Shown one piece after another: positions 12,150 to 60,400 of a DNA stretch of 64,000 nucleotides; the first letter of the stretch is position 1; each line of letters starts with the position of its first letter. The DNA is from Strix aluco (lineage: Eukaryota > Chordata > Aves > Strigiformes > Strigidae). The notes beneath the pieces are model-generated. The model saw only the letters and a list, made by a program, of their open reading frames with translations, had not been told where the DNA came from and ran no database searches. Position numbers and translations under genes: made by a program. Location of the stretch: the NCBI RefSeq assembly GCF_031877795.1, contig NC_133971.1, positions 17,829,171 through 17,893,170 on the forward strand, in the 5' to 3' direction.

Positions 12150-12154
12150 TAATG
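12150..12154. repeat. Left target-site duplication of the solo LTR (TAATG)
   Basis: TAATG directly precedes the LTR start TGTATTGG. The identical pentamer follows the LTR end at 12750-12754. Confidence 0.85.
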
Positions 12155-12749
12155 TGTATTGGGTCTGGCTGAGATGGAGTTAATTTTTCCCCATAGCAGC
12201 CATCATAGTGCTGTGCTTTGTATTGGTAGTTAAAAAGGTGCTGCTAACACACCAGTGTTTTGGCTAGTGCTGAGCAGTGCTGGCACAGCATCAAGGTTGT
12301 CACTCCAACATTCTCCCCCCCCCGCATCAGTAGACTGGGGGGGGGTGGGCAAGATCTTGGGAGGGGACACAACCAGGACAGCTGACCTGAACTGACCAAA
12401 GGGATATTCCATACCTTATGATGTCTGCTCGGCAATAAGAGTTGAAAGAAAGGAGGAGGAAGGGGGGGCATTTGTTATTTACATTTGTCTTCTGGAGGAA
12501 CCCCTATGCATACAAAAGTCCTGCTTTCTGGGAAGTGGACAGACAGTGCCTGCTGATGGGAATTAGAGAACAAAATCTTCTGTTTTCCTTTGCTTTTGCA
12601 CATGACCTTTGTTTTTGCCTTATTAAACTGCCCTTATCTCAACCCACACATCATTCTCTGTATTTTGTCTCCCCTGTCCAGATGAGGAGAGACAGTGATA
12701 GAGCAGCTTTAGTGGGCAGCTGGTATTCAGCCAGGGTCAAACCACCACA
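12155..12749 (+). mobile_element. Solo LTR, ERV-L-like, 595 bp
   Basis: It starts TGTATTGGGTCTGGCTGAGATGG and ends in GGGTCAAACCACCACA, so it has the canonical TG...CA ends. A TATTAAA element near 12622 and a TTATCTCAACCCA block resemble the poly(A) region of avian ERV-L LTRs. It is flanked by perfect 5-bp duplications (TAATG). No internal proviral sequence adjoins either side, so it is the product of LTR-LTR recombination. It shares the 5' TGGGATAGAGTTAA-like block, the TTATCTCAACC block and the 3' AAACCACA end with the LTR at 17515-18089, but it belongs to a different subfamily. Confidence 0.88.
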
Positions 12750-12754: not shown

Positions 12755-13599
12755 TAAAGAGGGATGCAATGTAAGAGAATCAGGAAAGTCCTTTTGTTTC
12801 TGTGTGCATCAAGGGGATGTTGTTCAGCAACGCTGCATTTGAATGGATCTTTGGCAGCAGCACCACCCAGTCATATCTGACCAACTTTCCACATTGCCAC
12901 TAGTAACATTCACACTTCACTTCTACACATCCAGGGGTGCAATATCCATCTGAAAAAAAAATTCAAATAATTAAACGCTCTCCAGTGTTCTGTTTATACA
13001 GTGAATATGCAGGCATACACACTGCTCAGCACTTTCCCTTTAGCTAAGTTGCCAGAGAAGGAAGAATCAGGTCTTAACACGTAGATACTAAATGCAGAAC
13101 TGTGTGTCCTTGGGGTTGCCTGCTGCTTCTGACTTCAGAGCCCACCTACTGTGCAGGTATAATTTTTCCCAAATGACCTATTAACTACTCCCGGTATGTA
13201 CAAATTAACACCAGGAGGGAGCCACAACAAATATCATCAAGCAGAAGGGCACCATCACCCCCAGTGAAACTCATCCTGTTTCTTCCAGCACATTCCTGTA
13301 GCTTTTGGTTTCTATTCTTTTTGAAAGTTGTAGAATGAACTTTGTGGTTTACAAAGTTCTCTCTGAGACATCTCATTTATGTTGAGATAGCAATATCCTC
13401 ACTTAACTCACATCTTTGCTTTATTTTTCACTCTCACACTATGACCATCTAGGTCTGTACTGGTGGATCAGAGCAGAACTAAAAGTATTGCAAGCAGCTT
13501 ACTTTTGAGTAGCCAGAGGCTAATGCAAAGTTTCTCCTTTGTGAACCTGTCAGGCAAAATGAGCTCAACAGTGGCACCAAACCACACCTTTGTACATAA
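12755..13599. other. Spacer between the solo LTR and the provirus; nothing recognised
   Basis: There is no primer-binding site or gag leader after the LTR at 12155-12749. This indicates that the LTR is not the 5' LTR of the neighbouring provirus. Confidence 0.6.
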
Positions 13600-13604
13600 C
13601 CTTC
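13600..13604. repeat. Left target-site duplication of the provirus (CCTTC)
   Basis: CCTTC directly precedes the LTR-type start TGTCCTGG. Its reverse complement GAAGG directly precedes the outer end of the inverted 3' LTR, at 17510-17514. Confidence 0.8.
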
Positions 13605-13633
13605 TGTCCTGGTTTCAGGTGGGATAGAGTTAA
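13605..13633 (+). mobile_element. 29-bp remnant of the provirus 5' LTR
   Basis: TGTCCTGGTTTCAGGTGGGATAGAGTTAA matches the first 29 bases of the 3' LTR (read on the minus strand from 18089) with five mismatches. Similarity stops abruptly where gag-like sequence begins. About 546 bp of LTR and the whole leader are therefore missing. Confidence 0.75.
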
Positions 13634-14453
13634 GGACACAAAACCTCAGTCTCTGGAGGTGACTTTTGTCAGGTGTGAGGGACAGGATCCCTTCAAGGAA
13701 GATGTTACATGTCATCCAAGTAAGTGGACCACCATGGAGAGAGGTATCCAACACTTGAGGGAACTAGCCATGTGGTTTACTATGATGTGTGGCTACCTAG
13801 AGATCCAGATGAAGTCCAATGTACCCAGCCCATGTGGCGGAAGTTTGTACAGAGCACCATCGTCATATGTCAATACATTAGCAGTAACGGACTGGAGAGA
13901 CGAAGAGGGAACTACAGTGGATGAATTGGCTCACCGTCTGTGACAATATGAAGAAAGTCTCTCTTTCTCCCTCATCACGGTTGCGGAGAGGTTGCCAGAT
14001 ATACTAGCTGACAAACTATCCTGAGAATTCCAGCAATTCTAGGAGGACATGTCCTACTCCCAACCTGCATGGACTAGGATCTCAGCTATTAGGAGCAAGT
14101 GTCTCCCTGCTCCAGAGAAACAGTATACACCATGGGGTAACCTGTGGTATTGCCAGCGTGACCACGGAGAATACATGAGAGAATGGGATAGAAAACCTAC
14201 CTACCCCCTAGAAGAGTGGGTACATGAGTTGGAAGGAAGACCAACTACAAATCAGCGTTCTTTCAGGAGAAATGCTGCTCCAGTTTCCAGTAATCAATTG
14301 CCCAAACAGAGCAGAAGTGTTGACTTTGCTCCTGATCCTATGAGAAGAACTTCTGATTTGTATTCACAAAAAGTGAGTGACCAAGATGAGACTGAGACCC
14401 ACACATATCACACTAACCCATTCATCGATAGCAGATGTTACGACCACCATTAG
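13634..14453 (+). pseudogene. gag remnant of an ERV-L-like endogenous retrovirus
   Basis: This is the plus-strand stretch upstream of the protease remnant, in the usual gag position. Two broken open frames cover it, at 13590-13943 and 14049-14453. It has a polar, Arg- and Pro-rich C-terminal part. A frame disruption lies near 13940-14050, and a stop precedes the protease region. There is no obvious zinc knuckle. The N-terminal part was lost in the deletion that fused it to the LTR start. The assignment comes from position and from resemblance to avian ERV-L internal sequence; it is non-functional. Confidence 0.7.
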
Positions 14454-14800
14454 AGGGGACCTGCCTCCAGCCAGGCAGAGGACAGGGACAACCAAGTTTA
14501 CTGGACCGTGTGGATTTGATGGCCTGGCACATCTGACCCCCAGCAGTATAAGGCTCTAGTGGACACGGGTGCCCAATGCACCCTAATGCCATCGAATTTG
14601 AAAGGGGCAGAAACCCATTTGTATTTCAGGAGTGACAGGGGCGTCTCAACAGCTGACTCTGTTGGAGACTGTGGTGAGCCTAACTGTGAATGAGTAGGAA
14701 AAGCACCCTATTGTGACTGGCCCAGACACTCCATGTATTCTTGGCATAGATTATCTCAGGAGACGGTATTTTAAGGACCCAAAAGGGTATCGGTGGGCTT
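14454..14800 (+). pseudogene. Retroviral aspartic protease remnant
   Basis: Around 14554-14595 a frame reads ALVDTGAQCTLMPS, carrying the D-T-G active-site triad of retroviral proteases. A hydrophobic ILGIDYL-like segment follows near 14739-14760, typical of the end of the protease. The frame is interrupted by stops, for example near 14450 and 14693, so no product is expected. Confidence 0.72.
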
Positions 14801-15604
14801 TCGGTATAGCTGCCTTGGAAACAGAAGGAATTAAACAGCTGTCTGTGTTACCTGGTCTATCAGAGGATCCTTCTGTTGTGGGATTGCTGAGGGTCAAAGA
14901 AAAACAAGTGCCAATTGCTACTACAACTGCACACCAATGGTAATATCGCACCAGTCAAGACTCCGTAATTCCTATCCATGAACTGATGCATTGACTAGAG
15001 AGCCAAGGAGTGATCAGCATGACTCACTCACCCTTTAACATCCCCATATGGCCACTGCAAAAGTCCAATGGAGAGTGGAGATTGACAGTAGCCTATCGTG
15101 GCCTGAATGAAGTTACATCACCACTGAGTGCTGCCATGATGGACATGCTAGAGCTTCAACACGAACTGGAGTCAAAGGCAGCCAAGTGGTACACCACGAC
15201 TGATATTGCTAACATGTTCTTCTCCATCCCTTTGGCAGCAGAGTGAAGGCCACAGTTTGCTGTCACCTGAAGGGGTGTCCAATACACCTGGAATTGACTG
15301 CCCCAGAGGTGGAAACACAGCCCCACCATTTGCCATGGACTGATACAGACTGCACTGGAACAGGGTGAAGCTCTGGAATACCTGCAATACACTGATGACA
15401 TCAACATATGGGGTAATACAGCAGAGAAAGGGGAGAAAATAGTATAAATCCTTCTGAGGTCCAGTTTTGCCATGAAGTAGGGTAAGGTCAAGGGACCTGC
15501 ACAGGACATACCATTTTTAGGAATAAAATGGCAAGATGGACGTCTGATGGATATGATTAATAAAATAACAGCTGTGATCCCACCAACTAGCAAAAAGCTT
15601 TCTT
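14801..15604 (+). pseudogene. Reverse transcriptase remnant
   Basis: Recognisable RT blocks occur in order: a template-contact region near 15035-15125 (W..L.V.YRGLNE), a D-I-A-N-M-F-F-S-I catalytic block near 15202, and the polymerase motif near 15388-15399. That motif reads Y-T-D-D where most relatives have Ile or Val at the second position. Stops interrupt the frame near 14941, 14992, 15244, 15444, 15477 and 15604. The gene is decayed. Confidence 0.85.
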
Positions 15605-16821
15605 AGGTGTTGTGGATTTCTGGAGACTTGCATATTCCAAATTACAGTCAGATTGTAAGCCCTCTCTATCAAATGACCCGGGAAAAGGATAATTTTACAT
15701 GGGGCCCTGAGCAACAACAAGTCTTTGAACAAATTAGTCAGGAAATAGTTCAGACAGTAGCCCTTGGGCTGGTTTGGGCAGGACAAGATGTTAAAAATCT
15801 GCTCTACACCACAGCTGGGAAAAATGGCTCTACCTGGAGCCTCTGGCAGAGAGCATCAGGGGAGACCCAGGGTCAACCCCTGGGGTTTTGGAGTCAGGGA
15901 TATAGAGGATCAGAGGACCGCTATACTCCAACCAAAAAGGAGATACTGGCAGCATATGAAGGGGTCTGAGCTGCTTCAGAGGTGATCGGGACTGAAGCAC
16001 AGCTCCTCCTGGCTCCCCGACTGCCAGTGCTGGGCTGGATGTTCAAAGGGAGTGTCCCCTCTACACACCATACAACTGATGCCACGTGGAGTAAATGGGT
16101 CGCATTAATCACACAACGGGCTCGAACAGGGAGCCCCAGACACCCAGGAATACTGTAAGTGATCACAAATTGGCCAGAAGGCAAAGATTTTGGAATGGCG
16201 CCAGAGGAAGAGGTGACGCGTGCTGAAGAGGCCCCATCATATAACAATTTACCAGATAACGAGAAGCGATGTGCCCTGTGTACCGACAGGTCCTGTCACA
16301 TTGTGGGGAAACATCAAAGGTGGAAGGTGGCTGTGTGGAGTCCCACACAACAGATCGCTGAAGCTGCTGAAGGAGAAGGTGAATCGAGTCAGTTTGCAGA
16401 GGTGAAAGCCACCCAGCTGGCCTTGAATATCGCTGAGAGAGAAAGGTGGCCAGTGCTCTACGTCTGTACCGACTCATGGATGGTGGCAAATGCCCTATGC
16501 AGGGTGTTACAGCAATAGAAACAGAGCTGCTGGCAGTGCAGAGGCAAACCCACATGGGTTGCTGAATTACAGCAAGATATTGATGCTCAGGTAGAGAACT
16601 TGGTTGTGAAAGTACATCACAGAGATGCTCATGTACCCAAGAGTCAGGCCACTAAAGAACATGAGAACAACCAACAGGTGGGTCAAGCTGCTAAGATTAA
16701 TGTGGCTCAAGTGAATCTGGACTGGCAACATAAGGGTAAAAAATTATAGCTCACTGGGCCCATGACTCCTCAGGCCATCAGGGAAGGGATGCAACATACA
16801 AATGGGCTCATGATGGAGGGG
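15605..16821 (+). pseudogene. RT connection and RNase H remnant
   Basis: The connection domain runs to about 15969 in one open frame (15607-15969). The RNase H region (16159-16518) shows three acidic sites in order: Asp in ALCTDRSC near 16276, Glu in SQFAEVKATQLAL near 16400, and Asp in YVCTDSWMVANAL near 16470. Stops occur near 15967, 16156, 16516 and 16747. The reading reaches the start of the integrase zinc-binding region near 16820 and is then broken by the inversion breakpoint. Confidence 0.85.
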
Positions 16822-16830
16822 TGTGTCTCA
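16822..16830. repeat. Inversion breakpoint repeat, left copy
   Basis: TGTGTCTCA lies where pol homology stops on the plus strand. Its exact reverse complement TGAGACACA is at 19397-19405, where pol homology resumes on the minus strand. Confidence 0.7.
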
Positions 16831-17509
16831 CCTTGGCAGAGAAGTGAGGATAATCCTCTGCAAGAAGCATACAGTCAGGCCTGTCAGAGCACAGAGAGGT
16901 GCCTGCAAAGCTTCAGATTTGTGCAGATTGAGAAGTACAAGCGAAAAAAACCCTTTATCTGCAGACAAACTCATCGTCAGGCAAGAAGCCATATCCTACC
17001 TGCAGTTACACTCATCTAAGTGAAGAGAAACTTTCACCATCTCTTAGTTACAGCCTTTGGCATTTTTAATGGTTCCTTTATCTGTTTCAGGGTTTTTTTA
17101 TAGCCAGATATCATGGTTCAGCCCAAGGTATAGTGCCATACACATCCCAGTCTAGCCACCAGGACAAGGTTAAATGGGCCTTGCCAAAATCTGGCTCCAA
17201 AGCCAGGTCAGGTTGAGTCACTGCTGCACTTACTCAGTTCCTTGCAAGGCTCAACTTCTGCTGGTTTGCATGGCTCCTGCTGTAGTACTTCCTACAACAT
17301 ACAGCCCGAATCATGTGTTACAGCAATTTAAACATAAATCCATTACAAGGGTGCTCAGGCTTTGTGCATGTCATTATCAGCAGCACATTTCTTCTTTATG
17401 CACTGCTTTGCCTCCTGGGACAAACAGCAGCAAGAATAGCATTTGTCCAGAGGTACCAGGACCTGGCTGGGCCCTTGAACAGTGTATTTTCCAGAGCAGA
17501 ATCCAGGAT
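16831..17509 (-). other. Right genomic flank of the provirus, carried inside the inversion
   Basis: This lies between the breakpoint and the TSD next to the inverted 3' LTR. It has no retroviral homology that I can see. By the TSD logic it was the host sequence directly downstream of the provirus before inversion. No gene is recognised. Confidence 0.6.
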
Positions 17510-17514
17510 GAAGG
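17510..17514. repeat. Right target-site duplication of the provirus, inverted (GAAGG)
   Basis: GAAGG directly adjoins the outer end of the minus-strand LTR. It is the exact reverse complement of CCTTC at 13600-13604. Confidence 0.8.
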
Positions 17515-18089
17515 TGTGGTTTAAACCCAGCTGGCAGCCAACCACCACACAGCTGCTCACTCACCCTCGCCTCACCCAGGGGATGGGTAGATAAATTGGA
17601 GAGGTAAAGAGAGACTTATAGGTTGAGATAAAAACATAACATTTCATAATTGAAATAAAATAAAACAATAAGAGAAAGTACGAACAGGTAATGCACAATG
17701 CGACTGCTCAGCACCCACTGACTGATACCCAGCCATTCCCGGCTAGTGATCCTGAAATACCAAGATCCCACAGTTGCAATCTTGGAAGCAAGAGAGAACT
17801 CCCTCCTTCCCAGCCAACCCTCCTCTATATACTGAGCATGATGTTACATCATATGGAATTGGCCAATTTGGGACCAGTGCTCTGGCCGTGTTGCCCCCCA
17901 GCTTCTTGTACACCTGCACATGGGCAGGACATGGGGAGTTGGAGAGTCCTTGATCTCTCATCAACAACTGAAAACATCAGTGTGTTATCAGCATTCTTCT
18001 CATACCAAATCCCATACTGAATCCAAAACACAGCACCACTCTAGCCACTAAGAAGAAAAATTAATTCTATCCCAGCCAAGACCAGGACA
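17515..18089 (-). mobile_element. 3' LTR of the provirus, in inverted orientation (575 bp)
   Basis: Read on the minus strand it starts TGTCCTGGTCTTGGCTGGGATAGAATTAA and ends GGGTTTAAACCACA. A TATATAG element near 17825-17832 could be the LTR TATA box. Directly upstream on the same strand is a purine-rich AATAAGGGGTTGAATAC stretch, acting as the polypurine tract. The pol C-terminus lies further upstream, so this is the 3' LTR of the same element as the plus-strand gag-pol. Confidence 0.88.
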
Positions 18090-18613
18090 GTATTCAACCC
18101 CTTATTCCATACCATTTACATTACGCTCAGGTTACATGTTTCCCAATACATTCTAATTAATCTCCATCCCTTTCCCTGGTCTTTGATGTATACACACAGA
18201 TATCACTCCCTTAGTCTACAGGCCATCCCTCCAGCATGTATAGTAACTTCATTTAGTCCATAACTTCAGGTTCCATCTGTCATGACAGTTTTTTAAGGCA
18301 GGAGGACTGAGACAGAGTTGGCTCAGTTGGTGGACTGAGTGACCTTGGTCACAGCAGGGGAATGGCATGTAATCTCTGCTACATTTGGAGCTCATAGCTG
18401 ATGTATCTGGCATGGTCCTTGCTTCCTGTCTGTGTGCCAAAGATGTCGATCTTCAGGAAGTTGCTGGGCACCAATCGCTGAAATCAGTCCTGACTCTACC
18501 AAAGTTCATTTCCTTTATATTAATGTGATGCCATTACTATAATATATATCAACCATATCGATGACAATATGCAATAACAGGGTTATTTAGCAATTAACAT
18601 CATACACTTCAAT
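18090..18613 (-). mobile_element. Provirus region between the pol end and the 3' LTR; no env seen
   Basis: About 524 bp separates the pol stop from the LTR. It holds only short frames and ends in a polypurine-like tract at the LTR border. The lack of an envelope gene fits ERV-L elements, most of which are env-less. Confidence 0.7.
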
Positions 18614-19396
18614 TCATTGGCTGTTTTCACCTAAAATCAAATCTCCCTGAGGCACACGCTGGAATTCCCCGTCCTTCTGCATTACCCACCAAGTGCACCC
18701 AGGTCCTTGGGCAAAACTATCCCACACATGGGTTTACCTTTACCTGATGCAGGAATAACTCAGACTGTCTGCCCCAGCATATTTTTAATGAGCACTACAG
18801 GGGCTTTATCCCCATCCACGGTATGTAGGAGGTTTGACTGGGCAAGGCCAGCTTGGTTGGCAGATCCTCTGGTATTGACTAACCAGGTGGCTTTTGCTAA
18901 ATGCACGTCCCAGTGTTTGAAAGTTCCACCACCTATTGCTTTCAGTAGTTTTTAGCAACCCATTGTACTGCTCAATTTTCCCAGAAGCTGGTGCATGGTA
19001 GGGAACGTGATATATCCACTCAATGCCATGTCCTTTGGCCCACATGGCTATGAGATTATTTCAGAAATGAGTCCCATTATCTGATTCAATTCCTTCTGGG
19101 GTGCCATGCTGCCACAAGACTTGGTTCTCAAGGCCCAGAACAGTGTTCCAGGCAGTGGCATGGGGCACAGCATGTTTCCAACCATCCAGTGGTTGCTTCC
19201 ACCATGGTGCGCACATAGTATTTGACATGCCAAGTTTGTTTACGTGTGATATAATCAATCTGCCAGGCCTCCCCATATCTATATTTTAACCACCATCCTC
19301 CATACCAAAGAGGTTTTAACCATTTGGCTTGCTTGATGGCAGCACATCTCACATTCATGGATTACCTGTGCAATAGTGTCCATGGTTAATGGGGCC
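18614..19396 (-). pseudogene. Integrase remnant, on the opposite strand to the rest of pol
   Basis: Read on the minus strand, the region begins with zinc-finger-type cysteines near 19340-19355. The catalytic D,D,E set then appears in order: Asp in EAWQIDYIT near 19255, Asp in IESDNGTHF near 19080, and Glu in ASGKIEQYNG near 18975. A Trp-rich C-terminal block ends at a TGA at 18614-18616. Frameshifts and stops break the reading near 19230-19270, 19060 and 18920. It begins at the point in pol where the plus-strand remnant stops, so it is the displaced continuation of the same gene. Confidence 0.88.
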
Positions 19397-19405
19397 TGAG
19401 ACACA
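19397..19405. repeat. Inversion breakpoint repeat, right copy
   Basis: TGAGACACA is the reverse complement of TGTGTCTCA at 16822-16830. Host flank resumes beyond it. Confidence 0.7.
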
Positions 19406-22400
19406 AGACACAGCTCAGCACCATTCAGTTAAAAAGATGCACACTTGCATTTGTCACAAGATAGGCTACAACTGAAATGAAAGGGGGAATCAACCCTGCA
19501 GGGCTTGTAAGGAGATACAGGCTCATGTACATTTTGTGTCACAAGTAAGGGACACCCTCAGTCTGCAGCAGGACCCATCAGTACTGTTCAGGAGGCAAGG
19601 AGGTTAGCAGAAACTTGTCCGTGTCAGCACCTATTTCAGGTCTGTTTGTCACCTTTCCCAAGCTTCTGCACTGTGCAAAACCACCCCACAAAACTGAGTC
19701 ACTGTTGGCAGCAGAAATTAAAGAGGAACTGTGCAAAAAGACTTCCAGGTTTGTAAGATGATGTCAAATGTGAGTCTCACACTCTGTCATGCTGGACCAG
19801 TTTCAAGCCTTTCTTTCAAGTAATGGGCATTGCAAATTGTAGACAAAGCTTGTTGTCTGGTCTCTCATGAGACTTCTTTCCACACAGACAGCGCTGTCCC
19901 TGATTTGACTCTTCCAGGCTTTCAGCAAAGGGCATCTGGATGTTGCTGTTGGATCTCCAGAGCTTTCTGCCTCTCTTAATTTGTTCCTCTGCTGTCTGCC
20001 TGCCTTGCCTGCTATCTGCCCCTCCAGCTGAAGCCAACCCTTCCCAACCCTCCTCCTAAACCAGTGCCTTGGCAGAGGAGCTCTGCAGCCCACACAGCTG
20101 CAAACGGTGGCCTCATGGAGCAGGATCTGGAGAGCAGGAGGCCATGCTGGGCCCAACGCTCAGCCTTGTGGCTCTGCGGCAGGGTGACCTGCAGGCAGCA
20201 CGGAGCTATGCTCTTGCCTCTGGCCCCTGCCCTGCAGAAATGCACTGCCCCACACTGCTGCCACGACAGTGCTGGGGAAAAAGCAGAGGAATGTGCCTGA
20301 ATGATGCATCACTACACACCAGTGATGCTCACTCAGCATGTCTCAGTGGGGGAGAGAGACAGACACTGGGGGTATCCCTGGGGTTTTGCATGCCTTGAAG
20401 GGAGCAATGACCTCAGAGGGGGTCCCCCCATCCCATGCCGCTGGAGAGGGACCATATGTCTGTCCTGCTGGCACTCCTGGCAGCAGTGTTGCTATTAGGG
20501 CAGCTGCACTAAATTTACCTGAGAGCGGAGCTGCAGAGCACAGGGCATGGTCTGGAGTCCAGGGCCTACCTGCATACGCAGTGTCCCTCCCCAGCACTCA
20601 GGGTGCAGGGTGCCAGCAGAGGGCACTTGCGAACCGGCACCCCAGGCACGGCCGCCCCAGGCAGCGCAGGGTGTACGGCTCCACCTGCACCCACCGCAAT
20701 CCCCCAGCCCTCTTCACCCGGCCCTTTCCCAAATCCCCACCTTACCTCCCTACCTCTCATCTTGCCTGCTTCTTGCCCAAGCTGTGCTCAATCCAAGCAC
20801 CACTTTCATGCCCCGGAGTGCATGTTTTTTGCTCTTGTGAGGAATCCGGGGCTGTGGGCTTCACCCCAGCACGGTCTGAGGCTGCTCACACGTGCGGGGC
20901 CTGCTGCTGTCCCCAGGGATGCCGAGGGCTGCTGTGACCACCCTGAAGAAGCCCAAACTCCCACTCCACCTGGAGAAGCTGACATGATGGATGCTGACCT
21001 TGGGGTAAGCTGGTAGGAGAGCTGCTGCAGGGGCTGTGCTTCTCTGTGCCCTCCCTGGCCAGAAAAGGACTTGTGAGGCTTGATACAGAGATACTCAGAA
21101 GGGCTAGACCAGCTTCTGCACCTCTATTGTTCCAACCACCTTCAGCTCCACAAGGCCATGCACACAGAGGGGCTGTGTTTTGCTGTGGACCAGGGGACAA
21201 ACTATTTCCATGTGGATACAGCCCTGCAGTGCTGGTGGTGACCACATGCTGCTCTTCAGGCAAGGAGTAGTTGCCCTGTGGCAGCAGTTGGTGTTACTCT
21301 GGCTAAAACACTGACCTCAGCATGGACCTGGAAAGCTGGATCACACTGAAACAAATCCTTCCATGAGCTGCAGGACTCGTAAAACCCCATTTGGCACATA
21401 TTCACATCCTTTACTGGATTCTGCCATGTTCCTTGAGAACATTGCTTTTCTTCTCAGAGTACGGACGGAGCTTATAACCTCCCTCTTCCCCCCCATACTT
21501 TGATGCCTAGGTACAAATGTCTCGCCACATTACCAGTGAACTTTCACTCTGTTGCACCCTGATGGCTTGTTTCAGCAAGTATTTTGGATGTTTATGATCT
21601 CTTCCAACTGCCAAGTTTGATTAAAATCAGACTTACAAGTCATTAGGCATGGTGGATGGACAGATGTATTCATGTGCAGCAAAGCAGTATAGTCACACAG
21701 CAGTTTTTTGTAGGGAGAAAAAGACTAAAAATTAGCTTCACCAAAAAAAGTACGTTACCACCACAATGAAGCCAGGGAGCTAGAATTTGATTTGGGTATA
21801 ACTGGAAAAGTGAGATCTCCAAGGACTCTTCACAGGTTGGGCTGGGTGGAGATTGCAATGGTGAAAAGCCGGAGAGGGCTGACGTGCAGCATGCGCAGCT
21901 GGACCTTGCCTAAGGACATGCACGTATGCATTTTTCCTTTAAGGTCTGTATTTCTATTTCCTCATTCACAGGTTCAGTAGGACATCTTACCTCTATACCA
22001 AAAATAGGTGTGCCACTAGATGCTTAGATTTATATACCTATATTTACCTATACACACATGACTGCACGCTTGCATGTGTGCAGAGTGCAAATGATCCCTG
22101 TCTGCAACAGAGGCTTCTTTCACCACAAAGCCCCGCTTTACTTCCAGAGCTGTGTTAAGTGCAAGCAAGACAGTGGTCTCATGGAAAAAAATGGCAATAT
22201 TTTTATACCACTCATACAAAACATAGCAGGCATTCATGCTAGGGTGCTACAAAGAACCTGTGGAAAAATGTATTAGACACCTCCTAACCCACTGATGTTT
22301 GTACTGAACACTGTGCTGTAAGTTCTTTTGCTATTGCTAGCTAAATTTAAGACGTGACATACATAATAGTGTCATGGGAAATCAAATTGACTCAACCTTG

Positions 22401-24315: not shown

Positions 24316-24559
24316 GGACAAAAACCACAACTGACATCACCCACTGCTGGCAATAGTCTCACTCCAAGCAGGACGTTTGGCTGGAGACCTCCAGAAGGCC
24401 CTGCCGCCAGCACTGCTGGCATCCTGTGATTTATTCAACAAAAAGGTGGTCCTGGCCTTATTCACTTTGCAGAAAACGCGTTCCAACAAGCTCCACCGAG
24501 CTGACAGAAAACTACAGTTTATGTTTAGTCGTGCCAAGTGAAGACTACCTGCAGCCCTC

Positions 24560-25790
24560 CGAGGGGCATGAACCCAAATACAGCCGCCGCCACCCCACAG
24601 CACCTCGCAGCTGCCTCTTGCGCCCTCTGCTAAAGCCGAGCGTTTTCGCATGCCGCTACAGGGACCGGCACGAACCTGCAGCCACGGCTACGACTCGGTG
24701 CTACCGGGTACCGTGCTGGAGCGTCGGCCGGAGGAGAGGGAGGGGTGCGCTCCCAGGGGCCAGCCCGGCGGCAGGGCTGCCCGCTCCGGTGCAGGGGGAG
24801 AGGCGGCTCCGTCGCCGCTGGCGGGGGCGGGCGGGATGCCGCGGGGAGAGCGGGATGCCGCGGAGGGGGCGGGATGCCGGGGCGGGATGCCGAGGGAGGA
24901 GGGGGGTTGCCGGGGCGGGCCCGAGGGTGCTCCCCCGAATGGCGGGCGGCTGCGGGCGGGGCGCGGGGCGCCGGGCCGCCCCCCGGTGGGCGGAGCCGCC
25001 ACCGCCACCGCCCCGTCCCCGTCCCCCGTCGGCGGCGCGGCGCGGGGCGGGCGGCGCTCCCCGCCAGCGCACCGGCATGAAGGAGCCGTCGCTGCCCGGC
25101 ACCTCGCTGCAGCGGGCCTGCCGCCTCCTCGTCGCCTTCTGCGCCCTCCACCTTTCGGCCACGCTGCTCTACTACCTGGCGGGCAGCGCCCTGGGGCCGC
25201 CGGGCAGCCCCGAGCCGCCGCCGCGCCGCCCGCCGCCCGCCAACCTCTCGCTGCCGCTCTCCCGCCCGCCGCCGCCGCCCGCCGCCGCCCGGCCCCGGCC
25301 CCCGCCCGCCTCGTCGCCGCCGCCGCCGGGCCCCTGCCCCGAGCCCTCCCCGCTGCTCGGTGAGTGCCGCCCCGTCGGGGGGTGGGGGGAGGGCTCCGCT
25401 TCCTCCCCTGCTGCCGCCCGCCGGGTTCCCGCCGCCGTCCGCTCCGCGGGGTTGGGGGGGTTCCCGGGCGGCCGCCGCCCTCGCCCCGACGGCAGCGCCC
25501 GCCGCCGGGTGCCCGCCGCCGAGCGTGCGGTCCCGGTGCCCCTCGTAGGTGTCTGTCCCCGCGGGGCGGGCGCAGGTGTGACAGCGGCGCGGCTGCCCAC
25601 GCGTGCCGCCGGCCGGCCGGCGCAGCCTCGCAGCGCCCGTCGGAGGGGGATTGTGGGAGAATCCCCGGGGAGCCGGTGTTTGGGGGGACCGAGGCGCGGA
25701 TGCTCTCGCAAGGAAGGCGGCGGCGACCGGAGCCCCGGCGCTGTCGGGGAGCGCGCCCTCCCCGTCCGGCTAGGTTTCTTTCTGGTTGCC
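24560..25790 (+). promoter_or_regulatory. B4GALT1: CpG island covering the B4GALT1 promoter and first exon
   Basis: There is an abrupt rise to very high GC with abundant undepleted CpG. Several GC-box cores (GGGCGGG, for example near 24825-24835 and 24882) lie upstream of the ATG. No TATA box is evident, which fits a housekeeping-type, Sp1-driven promoter as known for mammalian B4GALT1. The island runs through exon 1 into intron 1. Confidence 0.85.
24832..24892 (+). repeat. Four copies of CGGGATGCCG in the B4GALT1 promoter
   Basis: Exact 10-mers start at 24832, 24851, 24870 and 24883, with spacings of 19, 19 and 13 nt. G-rich spacers separate them. The cluster lies about 185-245 bp upstream of the B4GALT1 start codon. 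Confidence 0.85.
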
Positions 25791-28700
25791 GGAAAGGTTG
25801 GGTAATTTCCTCTGGGAACTCTACCCAGAATACTGCTCTTGCGCAATCTCACGGGAAGGATCGGACGGGCGGTTTGTGCCGTGGAGGCTCTCGCAGCCTT
25901 TTGTGTGTGCGGACCTGCTCGATGAGCGGTGTAGGTTTAAAGAGCGCTGCGAGGCAGGGTCATGAGTGCGGTTGTTATGCATCCCAGCGGCGCTTCCCAC
26001 GTATTTGGTCCTGTGATGCAGTATCCTGATACGTGGCAGCCTGGCGTGTGTTTTATCTGCACTGGATGTGTGCTCCCCACAGGCCTTTCCCAGGACTGCT
26101 TGGGTGCTGGGGGGCTGGCCGGCTGTTGTCGGGTTTGCAGCCTGCCTGTGGTCTAATTTGTGCATTGATCACCTGTAGCTGTTTTGATCTACCGACTCTG
26201 TCACAAGCGGTGGGGGCGAGGTGAATTCCAGATTTTTTCCTCCCCTTACAAGGCTCTCGTCCACCCTGCTGCTTGTCGCTGCTGCTCCTTGAGTAGACCC
26301 TCCTATGGTGCAGGTAGAGTTCGTTACCATGACCTGCTGGTATCCCAGTTGATAGTGACCTGGTCTATTTGGCTCCTGCAGCCTGGGGATCGTCTCCTTC
26401 TTCATCAGTGTGCCACGTTACCACGGGCACCTTTGTTACCGGAGATCACAACGAGGGAAGAGACTTTCGAGAAGATACCTGTGGTTTTCAATTTATGAAA
26501 CCAACACAGAAATTCATAGTTTCTCTCCGTGCTCGCTGGTCAGCTGCTTATGGATCAATGCATCTGAGTAACAAATGACTGGTTTGTTATTTTTAGGAAG
26601 GTGGTTTTGAGGTCACTAAAAGGAACTGTGCTGTGTCTTTTTGTTGTTCTTTTTGATTCATATCTTTCACTTTTTTCCCCCTAAATCACTTTAAGTTGAA
26701 AGTGGCTGTGCAAGCCGATCCTTACAGGGTGGATGTAGGAACCCTTTATGAATATGTCTTTGCTTTAAATGGTCTCCACTTACCCTGATCCTCTCAGGAG
26801 TGAGTCATGTGCTTTTGAAATGCCTGGTTTAGAGAAATGCTCTTAGTGTCCCCAAGATTCAAAGCGTTATCAGAATTAGTTGCTGAAGGATCAATTAAAA
26901 TATTGTCTACCGTCTTTGTAACATTCTCGGTACAATTTGCTGAATCTGCCAAAGGCCAAGTGAGGCTATTGGAAGTGGTTACAGATGTTCAGAGAGCTAC
27001 AGGGCCATGTAGAAAGTAGCTCTTTATAATGCAGTAGGCAAATAGTTTCTAGCTGTGTTACCTTCAGAACTTGTGGGGTGGTGCTGTCAGATGCAGGCTG
27101 GCACCATCACTGCTTCAAGGTTTGTAGCCAGCATGTAGGTGAGAAACCTGATGGGTATTTTATTTTTTTCCTGCTCTTTTCCGGTTTTGGGAGCAAGCAG
27201 CATTTGTAAAACTATCCTGTCGTGCCTCAGATGTTGGTCAGAGCTGAATGTGCCCTGATCATCTCATGTATCTCTAAGGCTAGTGTGGGGGATGGAAAGG
27301 TGTACACTCCGCAGGTATTTCTGACACTTAATTCACCCACCCAGAATTAAAAAAAACCCTCTTATTTGTTGCACAAAGCTCCTCATCAGTATAAACATAA
27401 CAAGCAGGAACCAGCAAGGACTTTCCTGTAATTCCCACCTTCCCAAGGCCATGGAGAAGTTCTCTGATGGGAACAGGTAGCTCCAACTGCCCCGTTCCCT
27501 CAGCGTAAACCTAAATTTATTGAAGTGCACCACATCCTTTTTTTTTTTTTTTTTCTCTCCCCACCCTGCTGGCGTTGGGAAGCATGTGATGAATCATGCA
27601 GGATATGTGTGACCGTGCTGCTCCAGCTTTTTGAACGGTCAAATAGCAAGGTACTCATTTCAGAGGCCCTGAGTTTTCTTTCTAGCAATACTTGGAGTAG
27701 TTTACATGCCTGCTGTCTGCCTCTGCAGCAAATGCATTAGCTGAATGAGGTTTAGTCTTACAAGAAGCTGCCAAATTTAAAATGCTTTTATGGTTCACTT
27801 GCCATTATTTATAATTTAAAAGTATAAATTGGGGCGGGAGAAATAATACTATAATTCAACTTTGAATTAAAAGTCCTTAACAGCTATGTAATACAAGGTA
27901 ATATAAGCATTTTGGATTTATGCTTCAGTTTAGAGCTGTGCACCAACGAGTATCTTAAATGGGGTATTGAGAAACAGAGCCTGCTTGCTGCAGTGAAATT
28001 TCAGCCTCTGAGAAGTCCAAAAGCAAGTAAATCCAGATATATCCTGCAGGTGTCCATTCCCCAAACTGTTGTGTTCTTTAGGAGCTGTAGAACAGTACTG
28101 GCTTTAAAAAAAAAAAAAAGTGCTCTATAGAAGTAGTATATATGTTGGCCTAAGTGCTTTTGAAACAGTCAAAATGCACTACCTTTTCTATGAGGTCTTT
28201 GTGTTTTGGTGATGGGGTAGTTTATGTGTCTGCTGGTTTTAGGAGGAAGTGGGGAAAGGAACATGTTCTTTGGTAGTAAGATCCCTCTCCAAAAGAGCTC
28301 ATCTTAAAGCAGCTCTTATCTTTTGGTGCCAGACAAACCTCATGGAAAGGCTTATCAGTATTTCAGGGATGTCATTTTCAAGTCCAGCCTGACTGAGAGC
28401 ACGTGTTGTTTATGGAGGTTACTCTAGAATACAGCTGTCTCCTTAGCCATATTTTGACCCTCGTTTAGATACCAGGTGTGGCTGGTAAGGGATGGCAGAC
28501 CGAAGAAATATGTTCTTACCTCAGCCCCTTGAGCATCTCATGGCAAAGATGACCCAAGTATTCTAAACATGTTGCAGTAAGGTGTCTGGCTCAATAGCTT
28601 TTCATCCCCAAGTTTAAAATTGACAACCCCAAACCCTAATAATTAATGGGATATTGACAAAGCAAAAAAATCTAGGTTAATATATGAACCGGTGAACTGT

Positions 28701-57254: not shown

Positions 57255-57425
57255 GTCAGGGTTTGCAACCAGGCAGATGGTAAGAATCTCCATCCTTGGA
57301 GATTTTCAAATGCCATCTGGACGTGGTCCTGGGCAACTGGCTCTAGGTGGCCTTGCTTGAGCGGAGGGGTTGGACCAGATGATCTGCAGAGATCCCTTCC
57401 AACCTCAGCTGCTCTGTGGCTGTGT
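57255..57425 (+). repeat. CR1 LINE 3' end, 5' truncated
   Basis: The region contains GAATCTCCATCCTTGGAGATTTTCAAA and GGACCAGATGATCTGCAGAGATCCCTTCCAACCTCAGC, ending in a CTCTGTGGCTGTGTG remnant of the terminal repeats. This is the standard CR1 3' end in the plus orientation. Confidence 0.88.
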
Positions 57426-60400
57426 GTTGTCCCCAGGAGAGCAGGGCTGCATGGAGCAGGGGCACTCACCGCCCCACAGTCATCCTGCAGCAGTGATTCT
57501 GGGGACAGAAGCCCCCAGAAACACACCACATTCAGCAACCTGGCACTTCTTCAAGGTGTATGAGTTTCTAGACAGCTCTTAGCCCTCGTCGTCCACCCCC
57601 TTCCCTGCATGGTGCCAGCGGGTGTTGCTTTCCCATGCCTCAGCAGGTGCCTGACCCTGTTGTTCAAATGTGTTTCTCATTGCTCAGCTGCTGCTGCTTT
57701 TCTTTTGTACACTTAACACAGGCTTTTCCCAGCTTTTGAGGCTGCACACCTAATCGACCTCCAGCAAGTTATTTATAGTCCTGGAGCCTCTGCTTTTGAG
57801 CTGTTCCAAAACTTTCAGGGCCTCTACTGCTATCACACTTACATCACACATTAATAACAAGAGACACCTGGTACTGTGGGCCAGTTCACACACCAGGCAC
57901 TCATGACAAGCTGTCAACAAGTATGACAGGCCAGGACAGGGTCCTGGTGCAGTGAGCATTCACTGATTTAGGGTAAGGACTGGGGCTGTTACCAGCAGTG
58001 GCACAGTTGTCCCTGGTGGAGTCCTGGGCAACAGCAGCAGATGATAGAAAAGCAAACCATAAGTCTCAGAACACTACAAAAATGCTGGCAAAAGCTTATC
58101 TTGTAACAATGCAGCAAAGCTCACTGTGGGACCCTATGGGAAGGGAGAAGATTTGTTTTGAAACTAAGCTTGTTTCCTCACTGCCACCCCTCACATCCCC
58201 TTACTCACAAGGATGTCCAACATCAGAGCATCTGAGTGGTCTGTCCAGGATGCTGGCACCAAAATGCAAGCAGTCTGTCCAGGAACACTTAACAGCAATG
58301 CAGAGTAAAAGGGACACTCGCTACTGAGGTTTTACCATGTCTTCTGGATTGTTAAGGAATTGTGTGCCGATTTGAGTCTTGCCTTTTTGTACCCATTAGG
58401 AGCTGATGGTGATTGTGGTCTCCTGTCTCTCCATCCTGCTCCTCTCTGAGGAACCATTAAGACTCATTCTTGCTCTTTGCCTCCTTCTCAGAATGCTTTA
58501 TGTCTCCTACCCTCTTCCCTGTCTTCCAAAAACTATTTTTAATGGCTTCAGTATAGCCTGCTTTAGGCTGTTGCATATTTGAGACCATCCCTGATTTTGG
58601 GGTGGTCTGGAAAGCAGTAGGACCCCTGTAATCAGTTAATGCAGGTGCCATTCATGGCTGCCCACCCTGTGGCCACCCCTGCCACTTGTTCCTGCAGGTG
58701 CTACCTACCCACGCACTCTCCATCCACACCAGTCAAAGTTTTCATTGCAGTCCCTTGTAGAGAAAGAAAACCGGCACAGTATTTCCATGAAGATAAAAGA
58801 AGCAAGGGCAAGGGAACAGCTGGCCACTTACTCAAAGTCAGTTTGGCGCTCAGGATCAACAAAGAGGCTGAAAACTGCTATTAAAGTCAGCCTTGAGGCA
58901 CAGCATTGTCAAACAAACTTGTTTTCTTCTGTTTTTCTTCTTTCAAAAAAACCAGCACAGGTTTGTTGCTTCAAGCCAATAAAGGGAATGGTGTTTCTGT
59001 TACATAATCAGATTTCCTCAAAGCATTTTTGACTTAGTATCACCTGATGCTTTGGTAAGATCCATGCCTTATGCAAAAGAGACAGCTTAAAAAGTGGTTC
59101 GGTGACCTTTCAAAAGGTAGCTGTTACAAAACCTTTACGAAGTTTGCAGATGGCAGGAACATGGTGGCATAGCAAATATGGCTCTCTGTTACAGAAGGCT
59201 CTGGATTTAAATAAATCATTACAGTCTGGTGAAATTAACTTTAATAAATAAATTACAGAAATGCAACTGGAGGCCAGTAATGCCAGATGTGACATCTGTC
59301 TTGGAAAGCAGTGTTGCAGTGAGATGGAAGTATCTGTGGGTATCACCGTGAGCTCTTTGTGCTGCAGTTAACAGGGATAATGCAACCTCCAGCTGTAAGC
59401 AAGTGGATAATGGCATTAGAAACAGAGGGATCTTGCTTCTGTGCACAGGCCTGGTAGGAAAAGCACTCAGCTGCTGTCTGTATTTCCAGAGGAACAAGGA
59501 AATATGCATATTCAAAGTGGCTGCAGAAATGAGAAACGAGTGCTACAGCAGAAAGATTACCTTGTGCTGCACATCTGGGAGGGAGAGAGCATCTCTGAGC
59601 CTTGTTCAGAGGTACAGTGCAGCAAAAGGGAAGACTCTGATAGCCCCCCCTGGCTTTCAGTCTTTCCATCAATAGGGTCTCTGCTTTGCTCCTTTTTTTT
59701 CCCTGACACTGGGTGTGTCTCCAGGGAGGAGGCATCGACAATTCAGCAGGTAACTCCTGCAGCTCTGCGTTGTGACAGACTCTAAATCAGGGCTCAGGCT
59801 GCAGAGCTGGTTACATGCAGGGATCAGGAAGAATATCCCCTTTCCTGGTTAGCTGCATTTTCTGTGTCACATCCTCACAACTTCTCAGAGATGAAAGTGC
59901 TCAGCAAGTTTGGCATGACTGAGTTAAAATGACTGTGTCCAGTATGCTTGAATGGCACAGGGTGGACAAGCAAAGTTGAGCACACCTGCAACCTAGGATC
60001 AGCCTGCACATCTGAAGCTATTCCTTTGGGTAGATGATTTCACACTGAAGGGCTGAAATTTTTAATTCCTAATCTTGTGTGCACAAGCTCTTGACAGATC
60101 TCAACACTAGGGGCATCCCCTTCATTTCTGGGTGCACAGCATGAGCCCCGTGACTTGAGCGTGTCAGGGACAGCCAGGTAAATGTCCTGCATCCACCTGC
60201 CCAAGCACTGTCTGTACATCTTTCCTTCTGCTGGTTGTCCAGCCAAGGAGCCTATTTTCTCTCACCATTGATTTGCCAGGCCACAGATGTTCACAGTCCT
60301 GGGAGAGTGGCCTTGGCTCTGCCAAATCCCTTACTGCCTGTCAGCAGGAGAACAGCCTCTTCGCAAGTGTCAGGTGCGAAAGCTCCAGCATGGAGTCAGC

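Follow-up and report, generated by a model that had tools for sequence, protein, structure and literature searches.

Reconstruction of a probable post-integration inversion in an ERVL/ERV3-type provirus of Strix aluco

The stretch of DNA analysed here (the window; C41:17829171-17893170, contig NC_133971.1, 64,000 nucleotides) belongs to the assembly of the owl Strix aluco, which spans 1.41 Gb in 202 contigs, and contains a broken endogenous retrovirus (ERV) at window positions 13600-19405. Its arrangement very probably reflects a single insertion of a provirus of the ERVL/ERV3 type, with a target-site duplication (TSD) of 5 bp, followed by the inversion of a 2,566-bp segment (16824-19389). This segment comprises most of the integrase, the 3′ long terminal repeat (LTR) and, beyond the LTR, one copy of the TSD together with 686 bp of host DNA. 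Because both host flank and a TSD copy lie within the inverted piece, the inversion would postdate integration. The evidence supports one insertion and one later inversion as an account of all junctions. The analysis shows the complementary halves of the element, the pair of TSD copies, non-ERV DNA outside the 3′ LTR, an inverted duplication at the breakpoints, and a deletion at the 5′ end.

An earlier note on this DNA had proposed one insertion followed by inversion of 16831-19396 with about 680 bp of host flank. The inversion stands, as the two pol halves abut in related copies, the TSD has the length typical of the family, and the host flank is not found in ERV loci. The flank measures 686 bp, and the interval now runs from 16824 to 19389; a 9-bp inverted repeat and a 7-bp filler account for the shift. 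The strands had also been read correctly: the gag-to-RNase H remnants, placed on the plus strand to about 16.82 kb, are recovered by Pfam matches (gag by DNA comparison) with the break at 16823, and the integrase and 3′ LTR lie on the minus strand (an rve fragment at 19128-19361, the LTR at 17515-18089), with the start refined to 19389.

Continuity of pol Across the Break

Related copies were collected through a genome search with the pol piece 16560-16822, in which the best 40 of 1,126 candidates were scored. Thirty loci were cut out, one being the window itself, leaving 29 relatives (L010-L038). Against each of these the two halves were aligned separately, the plus half ending at 16823 and the minus half starting at 19389. 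In 24 of the 29, the two halves share a strand and are separated by exactly 3 bp, which bears out the proposal that the pol reading stops and resumes at matching positions; with the near-identical pairs L013/L014 and L036/L037 counted once, this spacing is seen in 22 of 27. Small local deletions are present in L018 and L022 (2/29), where the halves lie within 20 bp of each other. Plus-strand homology at the DNA level stops at 16823 in most relatives. The alignment of the plus half extends to 16836 in L011 and L024, an extension judged by eye to be chance since the minus half begins at the same place in both.

LTRs and Target-Site Duplication

The LTR of this family starts with TGTCCTGG and ends with CA, and the window LTR is likewise bounded by TG and CA. 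A genome search with the 3′ LTR gave 3,603 candidates; of the best 40, which were scored, 39 are other places with identities of 82-87% and one is a short match at 78%. Thirty of these loci were cut out, one of which is the window's own. Among the 29 others, which include proviral LTRs (where a single LTR is expected to lack a TSD) and two pairs with identical ends (L050/L051 and L060/L061), exact 5-bp TSDs flank 12, whereas the same rule, with five offsets, found one in 7 of 812 mismatched pairs. CCTTC and its reverse complement GAAGG were found at the positions given in the earlier note, immediately outside the two LTR ends. The 3′ LTR is nearly whole, and of the 5′ LTR only 29 bp are left.

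A TSD of 5 bp is the criterion for the ERVL/ERV3 superfamily in the part of PMC6523648 drawn on here. The ERVL/ERV3-type assignment is a probable one, made from TSD length and LTR ends; Pfam gave general retroviral domains only.

Five LTR relatives (L040, L041, L043, L056, and L068; C41, 16.97-18.63 Mb) are no more than about 0.9 Mb from the window, the two most similar scored relatives among them. In the 1.5-kb flanks fetched for these five, only LTR sequence is common to the window flanks. They represent local clustering of one LTR subfamily.

Host DNA Within the Inverted Segment

What lies between the 3′ LTR and the inner breakpoint is host DNA. Neither 16824-17192 nor 17349-17509 has a match in 29 ERV loci, and genome searches with 17350-17509 and 16824-17192 returned the window itself only, as did a search with 19397-19800 beyond the outer breakpoint. 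The empty site was also searched for in the owl's own genome with the host flanks joined at the TSD and at breakpoint 2; only the window was returned, although very common words were skipped and the result is no proof of absence. No paralogous or W-linked empty site turned up in these searches.

Between the two host stretches, 17193-17348 is a 155-bp fragment that stems from a different and older ERV family, with at least 40 other matching places in the genome. This fragment is found near an LTR of a second family, in the same orientation, in six of seven loci, the seventh (L006) showing no LTR; L003 additionally carries a 59-bp partial copy in the opposite orientation. In five of the seven (L002, L003, L004, L005, and L007) the fragment lies about 245-290 bp upstream of the second-family LTR, and it is 77-80% alike among loci, the accompanying LTRs being about 65-71% alike. 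Elsewhere in the window, 12152-12749 (plus strand) is a remnant LTR of this second older family, about 65-74% identical over longer stretches to L002-L005, L007, and L008. The 155-bp fragment was tried as a marker of orientation and set aside: un-inverting the segment would restore the same orientation as that of the remnant, which favours the inversion slightly, and the two may be unrelated since searches with 13205-13604 and 17350-17509 returned nothing but the window.

Breakpoint Structure and Proposed Mechanism

The present joints read GGGGTG/TGTCTCACC at 16823/16824 and TTAA/TGGGGCC/TGAGACACAAG at 19389/19390 and 19396/19397. A 9-bp inverted duplication marks the two breakpoints, with TGTGTCTCA as its arm at breakpoint 1 and TGAGACACA as its arm at breakpoint 2; among 20,000 pairs of places drawn at random, 51 had inverted repeats of at least 9 bp. 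The first two bases of TGTGTCTCA overlap pol, a possible microhomology, and by comparison with relatives three pol bases were lost at the break. Together with the filler at breakpoint 2, these features are what staggered breaks and end joining would be expected to leave. Models of inversion through staggered breaks and non-homologous end joining are presented in PMC7584159, in the part cited here. The same source also allows for such duplications to arise from repair alone, so the staggered-break mechanism is put forward conditionally.

In the proposed course of events, the provirus would have integrated once, in the plus orientation, at a site marked by CCTTC. Two later breaks would have occurred, one where the integrase zinc domain is encoded, the other some 690 bp past the 3′ LTR in host DNA, with the segment between them (16824-19389) rejoined in the reversed orientation. 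The host break was probably staggered, and fill-in would leave TGAGACACA at both new joints, the ancestral host sequence presumably having held it once. Rejoining would have added the 7-bp filler at one joint and dropped the three pol bases. The empty site predicted in the earlier note, which joined 16831 to 19406, does not fit this course, as it drops both 9-bp copies where one TGAGACACA should stay. A separate deletion took out the remaining 5′ LTR and leader.

Deletion at the 5′ End

The near-complete loss of the 5′ LTR is an addition to the earlier note. Positions 13604-13633 match the first bases of other LTRs, at 93% to L069 and 90% to L070. When 13605-14020 was searched (best 40 of 860 candidates scored), the other 39 matches started at 13632-13644, none of them covering 13605-13631. 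In L076, about 1.2 kb separate the homologous gag base from the LTR match that precedes it. The junction at 13633/13634, where AA is common to both sides, represents a deletion of the remaining 5′ LTR and leader that fused LTR bases 1-29 to gag. This deletion is an event separate from the inversion, and its place in the order is one that we infer.

Alternative Histories

Several observations weigh against a single insertion followed by inversion. In three of the 29 pol relatives (L025, L026, and L038) the minus half was not found after the break; in L026 and L038, pol runs on for about 15-18 bp past the break and then diverges. The TSD match requires the window LTR to end 3 bp before the LTR end of most relatives, and this 3-bp loss must be granted, being the main freedom in the match. 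The halves also differ in private divergence (70/1,227 columns on the plus strand and 23/623 on the minus strand, Fisher P 0.07; 42/533 and 24/564 in an earlier cut) and in terminal branch length (0.117 and 0.065), and the relatives' identity rankings by the two halves are uncorrelated (rho -0.13, 20 loci). Blocks of 300 bp inside the plus half also vary in private divergence (P 0.015). The divergence, branch, and ranking results neither prove nor break a single origin.

As a separate observation, a different repeat interrupts the ERV copy of L025 (1765-1766) at the position of the window's pol breakpoint, the only such case among the 29 relatives and perhaps a matter of chance.

It is very unlikely that the locus arose from two separate insertions of one family, oppositely oriented and both truncated. 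In favour of such a history are the abundance of the family (first-look candidates numbered 1,126 with the pol piece and 3,603 with the LTR), some difference between the halves in private divergence, and nearest relatives that the halves do not share. Yet the second copy would have to start within 3 bp of the point at which the first stops, and a matching 5-mer would be needed outside its LTR; CCTTC or GAAGG starts at a frequency of about 0.0015 per strand-position of the window (194/128,000), and with five offsets allowed the frequency among mismatched pairs is 7/812. An assembly error, by which the segment would be flipped in the assembly only, is about equally improbable. Repeats can mislead assemblers, but the ends here are joined by a mere 9-bp inverted repeat, the window contains no N, and an error would have to invent the 7-bp filler and the three missing bases; the 202 contigs for 1.41 Gb also suggest that the assembly is probably based on long reads.

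Hardly any weight is left for inversion before or during integration, through autointegration or template switching: although the defective proviruses of human immunodeficiency virus 1 (HIV-1) that are counted in the part of PMC11014653 cited here include a class with internal inversions, such an inversion could not carry host flank, and the 686 bp outside the LTR are, save for the 155-bp fragment, absent from 29 ERV loci, the inverted piece contains one TSD copy, and the second copy predicted from 19390 onward is not present there. The non-ERV DNA beside the 3′ LTR strongly disfavours inversion within viral DNA prior to integration.

As to age, the two terminal branches disagree; private divergence of 5.7% in the plus half and 3.7% in the minus half, at an assumed neutral rate, suggests tens of millions of years and nothing finer, with a bias from relatives that were picked by likeness to the plus half.

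Coding Remnants of the Provirus

Features of the locus are collected in Table 1. Pfam scans covered 19 pieces, and curated cut-offs were exceeded by RT_RNaseH_2 alone; since all other Pfam matches fall below them, the firm evidence for the provirus is DNA comparison. The gag pieces gave no Pfam match, and their match to other copies is at the DNA level, from 13632 on. Integrase_H2C2 was matched on the plus strand by the first half only (16740-16822, profile positions 9-30 of 59, E 0.0018, below cut-off). Pfam found no match at 19282-19389, the first piece of the minus strand, so the zinc domain's second half is assigned through DNA homology. The integrase core fragment at 19128-19361 (minus strand) matches rve at E 0.016, below cut-off. 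Scans of the window with Rfam (gathering scores) and for tRNA genes gave no matches.

Table 1. Features of the provirus and its breakpoints, in window coordinates.
Feature	Position	Strand	Basis
5′ TSD copy, CCTTC	13600..13604	+	Sequence; reverse complement at 17510-17514
5′ LTR remnant, 29 bp, starts TGTCCTGG	13605..13633	+	Match to start of L069 5′ LTR
gag region remnant	13634..14519	+	DNA matches to L073, L074, L075, L076
Protease remnant	14520..14693	+	Pfam gag-asp_proteas, E 0.0032, below cut-off
Reverse transcriptase remnant	14995..15444 (pieces 14995-15246, 15298-15444)	+	Pfam RVT_1, E 8.5e-5 and 9.5e-4, below cut-off
RNase H remnants	15607..16518 (15607-15969, 16159-16518)	+	Pfam RT_RNaseH_2 (E 1.3e-9, passing the cut-off) and RNase_H (E 1.4e-4, short of it)
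Integrase zinc-binding domain, first part, ending at breakpoint 1	16740..16823	+	Integrase_H2C2 match and DNA homology
TGTGTCTCA, arm of 9-bp inverted duplication at breakpoint 1	16822..16830	+	Sequence
Host flank, 686 bp, carried in the inversion; includes the 155-bp ERV fragment	16824..17509	-	Absent from relatives outside 17193-17348; genome search
3′ TSD copy, CCTTC on minus strand (GAAGG on plus)	17510..17514	-	Sequence; TSD length of the family
3′ LTR, TG...CA, 575 bp, now inverted	17515..18089	-	Genome search
Rest of integrase and stretch to 3′ LTR, inverted	18090..19389	-	rve fragment; DNA homology to relatives from 19389
7-bp putative filler, breakpoint 2	19390..19396	.	Without counterpart in relatives' pol or the inverted duplication
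TGAGACACA, other arm of 9-bp inverted duplication; host DNA continues onward	19397..19405	+	Sequence

Chromosomal Context

Contig C41 is 97 Mb long. Contig C40, at 49 Mb, makes up 3.5% of the genome and carries 26 of the 40 scored matches to the pol piece (best 40 of 1,126, the window's own included); this excess suggests a W chromosome, and C41 is possibly the Z. Downstream of the provirus, 24357-25805 (plus strand) is a GC-rich block with an open reading frame (ORF) and a GC content of 0.765 at 25-26 kb. Pfam found no match in this CpG-island ORF, the N-terminal stretch of which may resemble B4GALT1 exon 1. At 57269-57426, the window matches three ERV loci (L030, L049, and L072) over short lengths.

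It is a most doubtful suggestion that the inversion was kept through relief of LTR interference with a gene whose CpG-island promoter, perhaps at B4GALT1 exon 1 on the Z, lies some 6 kb downstream (24.5-26 kb); the promoter-bearing 3′ LTR would have been turned from facing this promoter to facing away from it, and 686 bp of upstream host sequence would have been shifted. B4GALT1 lies on the chicken Z, according to the part of PMC6351704 cited here.

Comparison with Known Systems and Significance

Bird ERVL/ERV3 elements, such as TguERVL2 in the cited part of PMC6523648, resemble the window copy in TG...CA LTR ends and a 5-bp TSD, as well as in a pol with protease, reverse transcriptase, RNase H, and integrase. 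In contrast, the window copy is broken, its 5′ LTR is 29 bp long, and 16824-19389 is inverted. The inversions through staggered breaks and end joining that are treated in the cited part of PMC7584159 likewise have, in the inverted state, an inverted duplication at either end, but they are chromosomal, whereas this one is 2.6 kb long with a duplication of only 9 bp, and one of its breakpoints lies inside a provirus, the TSD of which places inversion after insertion. A reversed proviral segment is also shared with the internally inverted HIV-1 proviruses of PMC11014653, as far as the part cited goes; here, host flank and one TSD copy are included, so the inversion would be post-integrational. 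Among the papers listed by literature searches on ERV inversions with TSDs in birds, internal proviral inversion, and post-insertion inversion, no title or opening of an abstract described such a locus.

The history of the locus is well resolved and the type of event is ordinary; taken alone, the locus leaves existing knowledge unchanged. It offers a clean worked example in which a TSD orders two events, insertion before inversion, and it gives the breakpoints of a small inversion at the level of single bases, with the footprint of end joining. Such loci are usable as controls for the calling of small inversions and nested repeats in bird assemblies.

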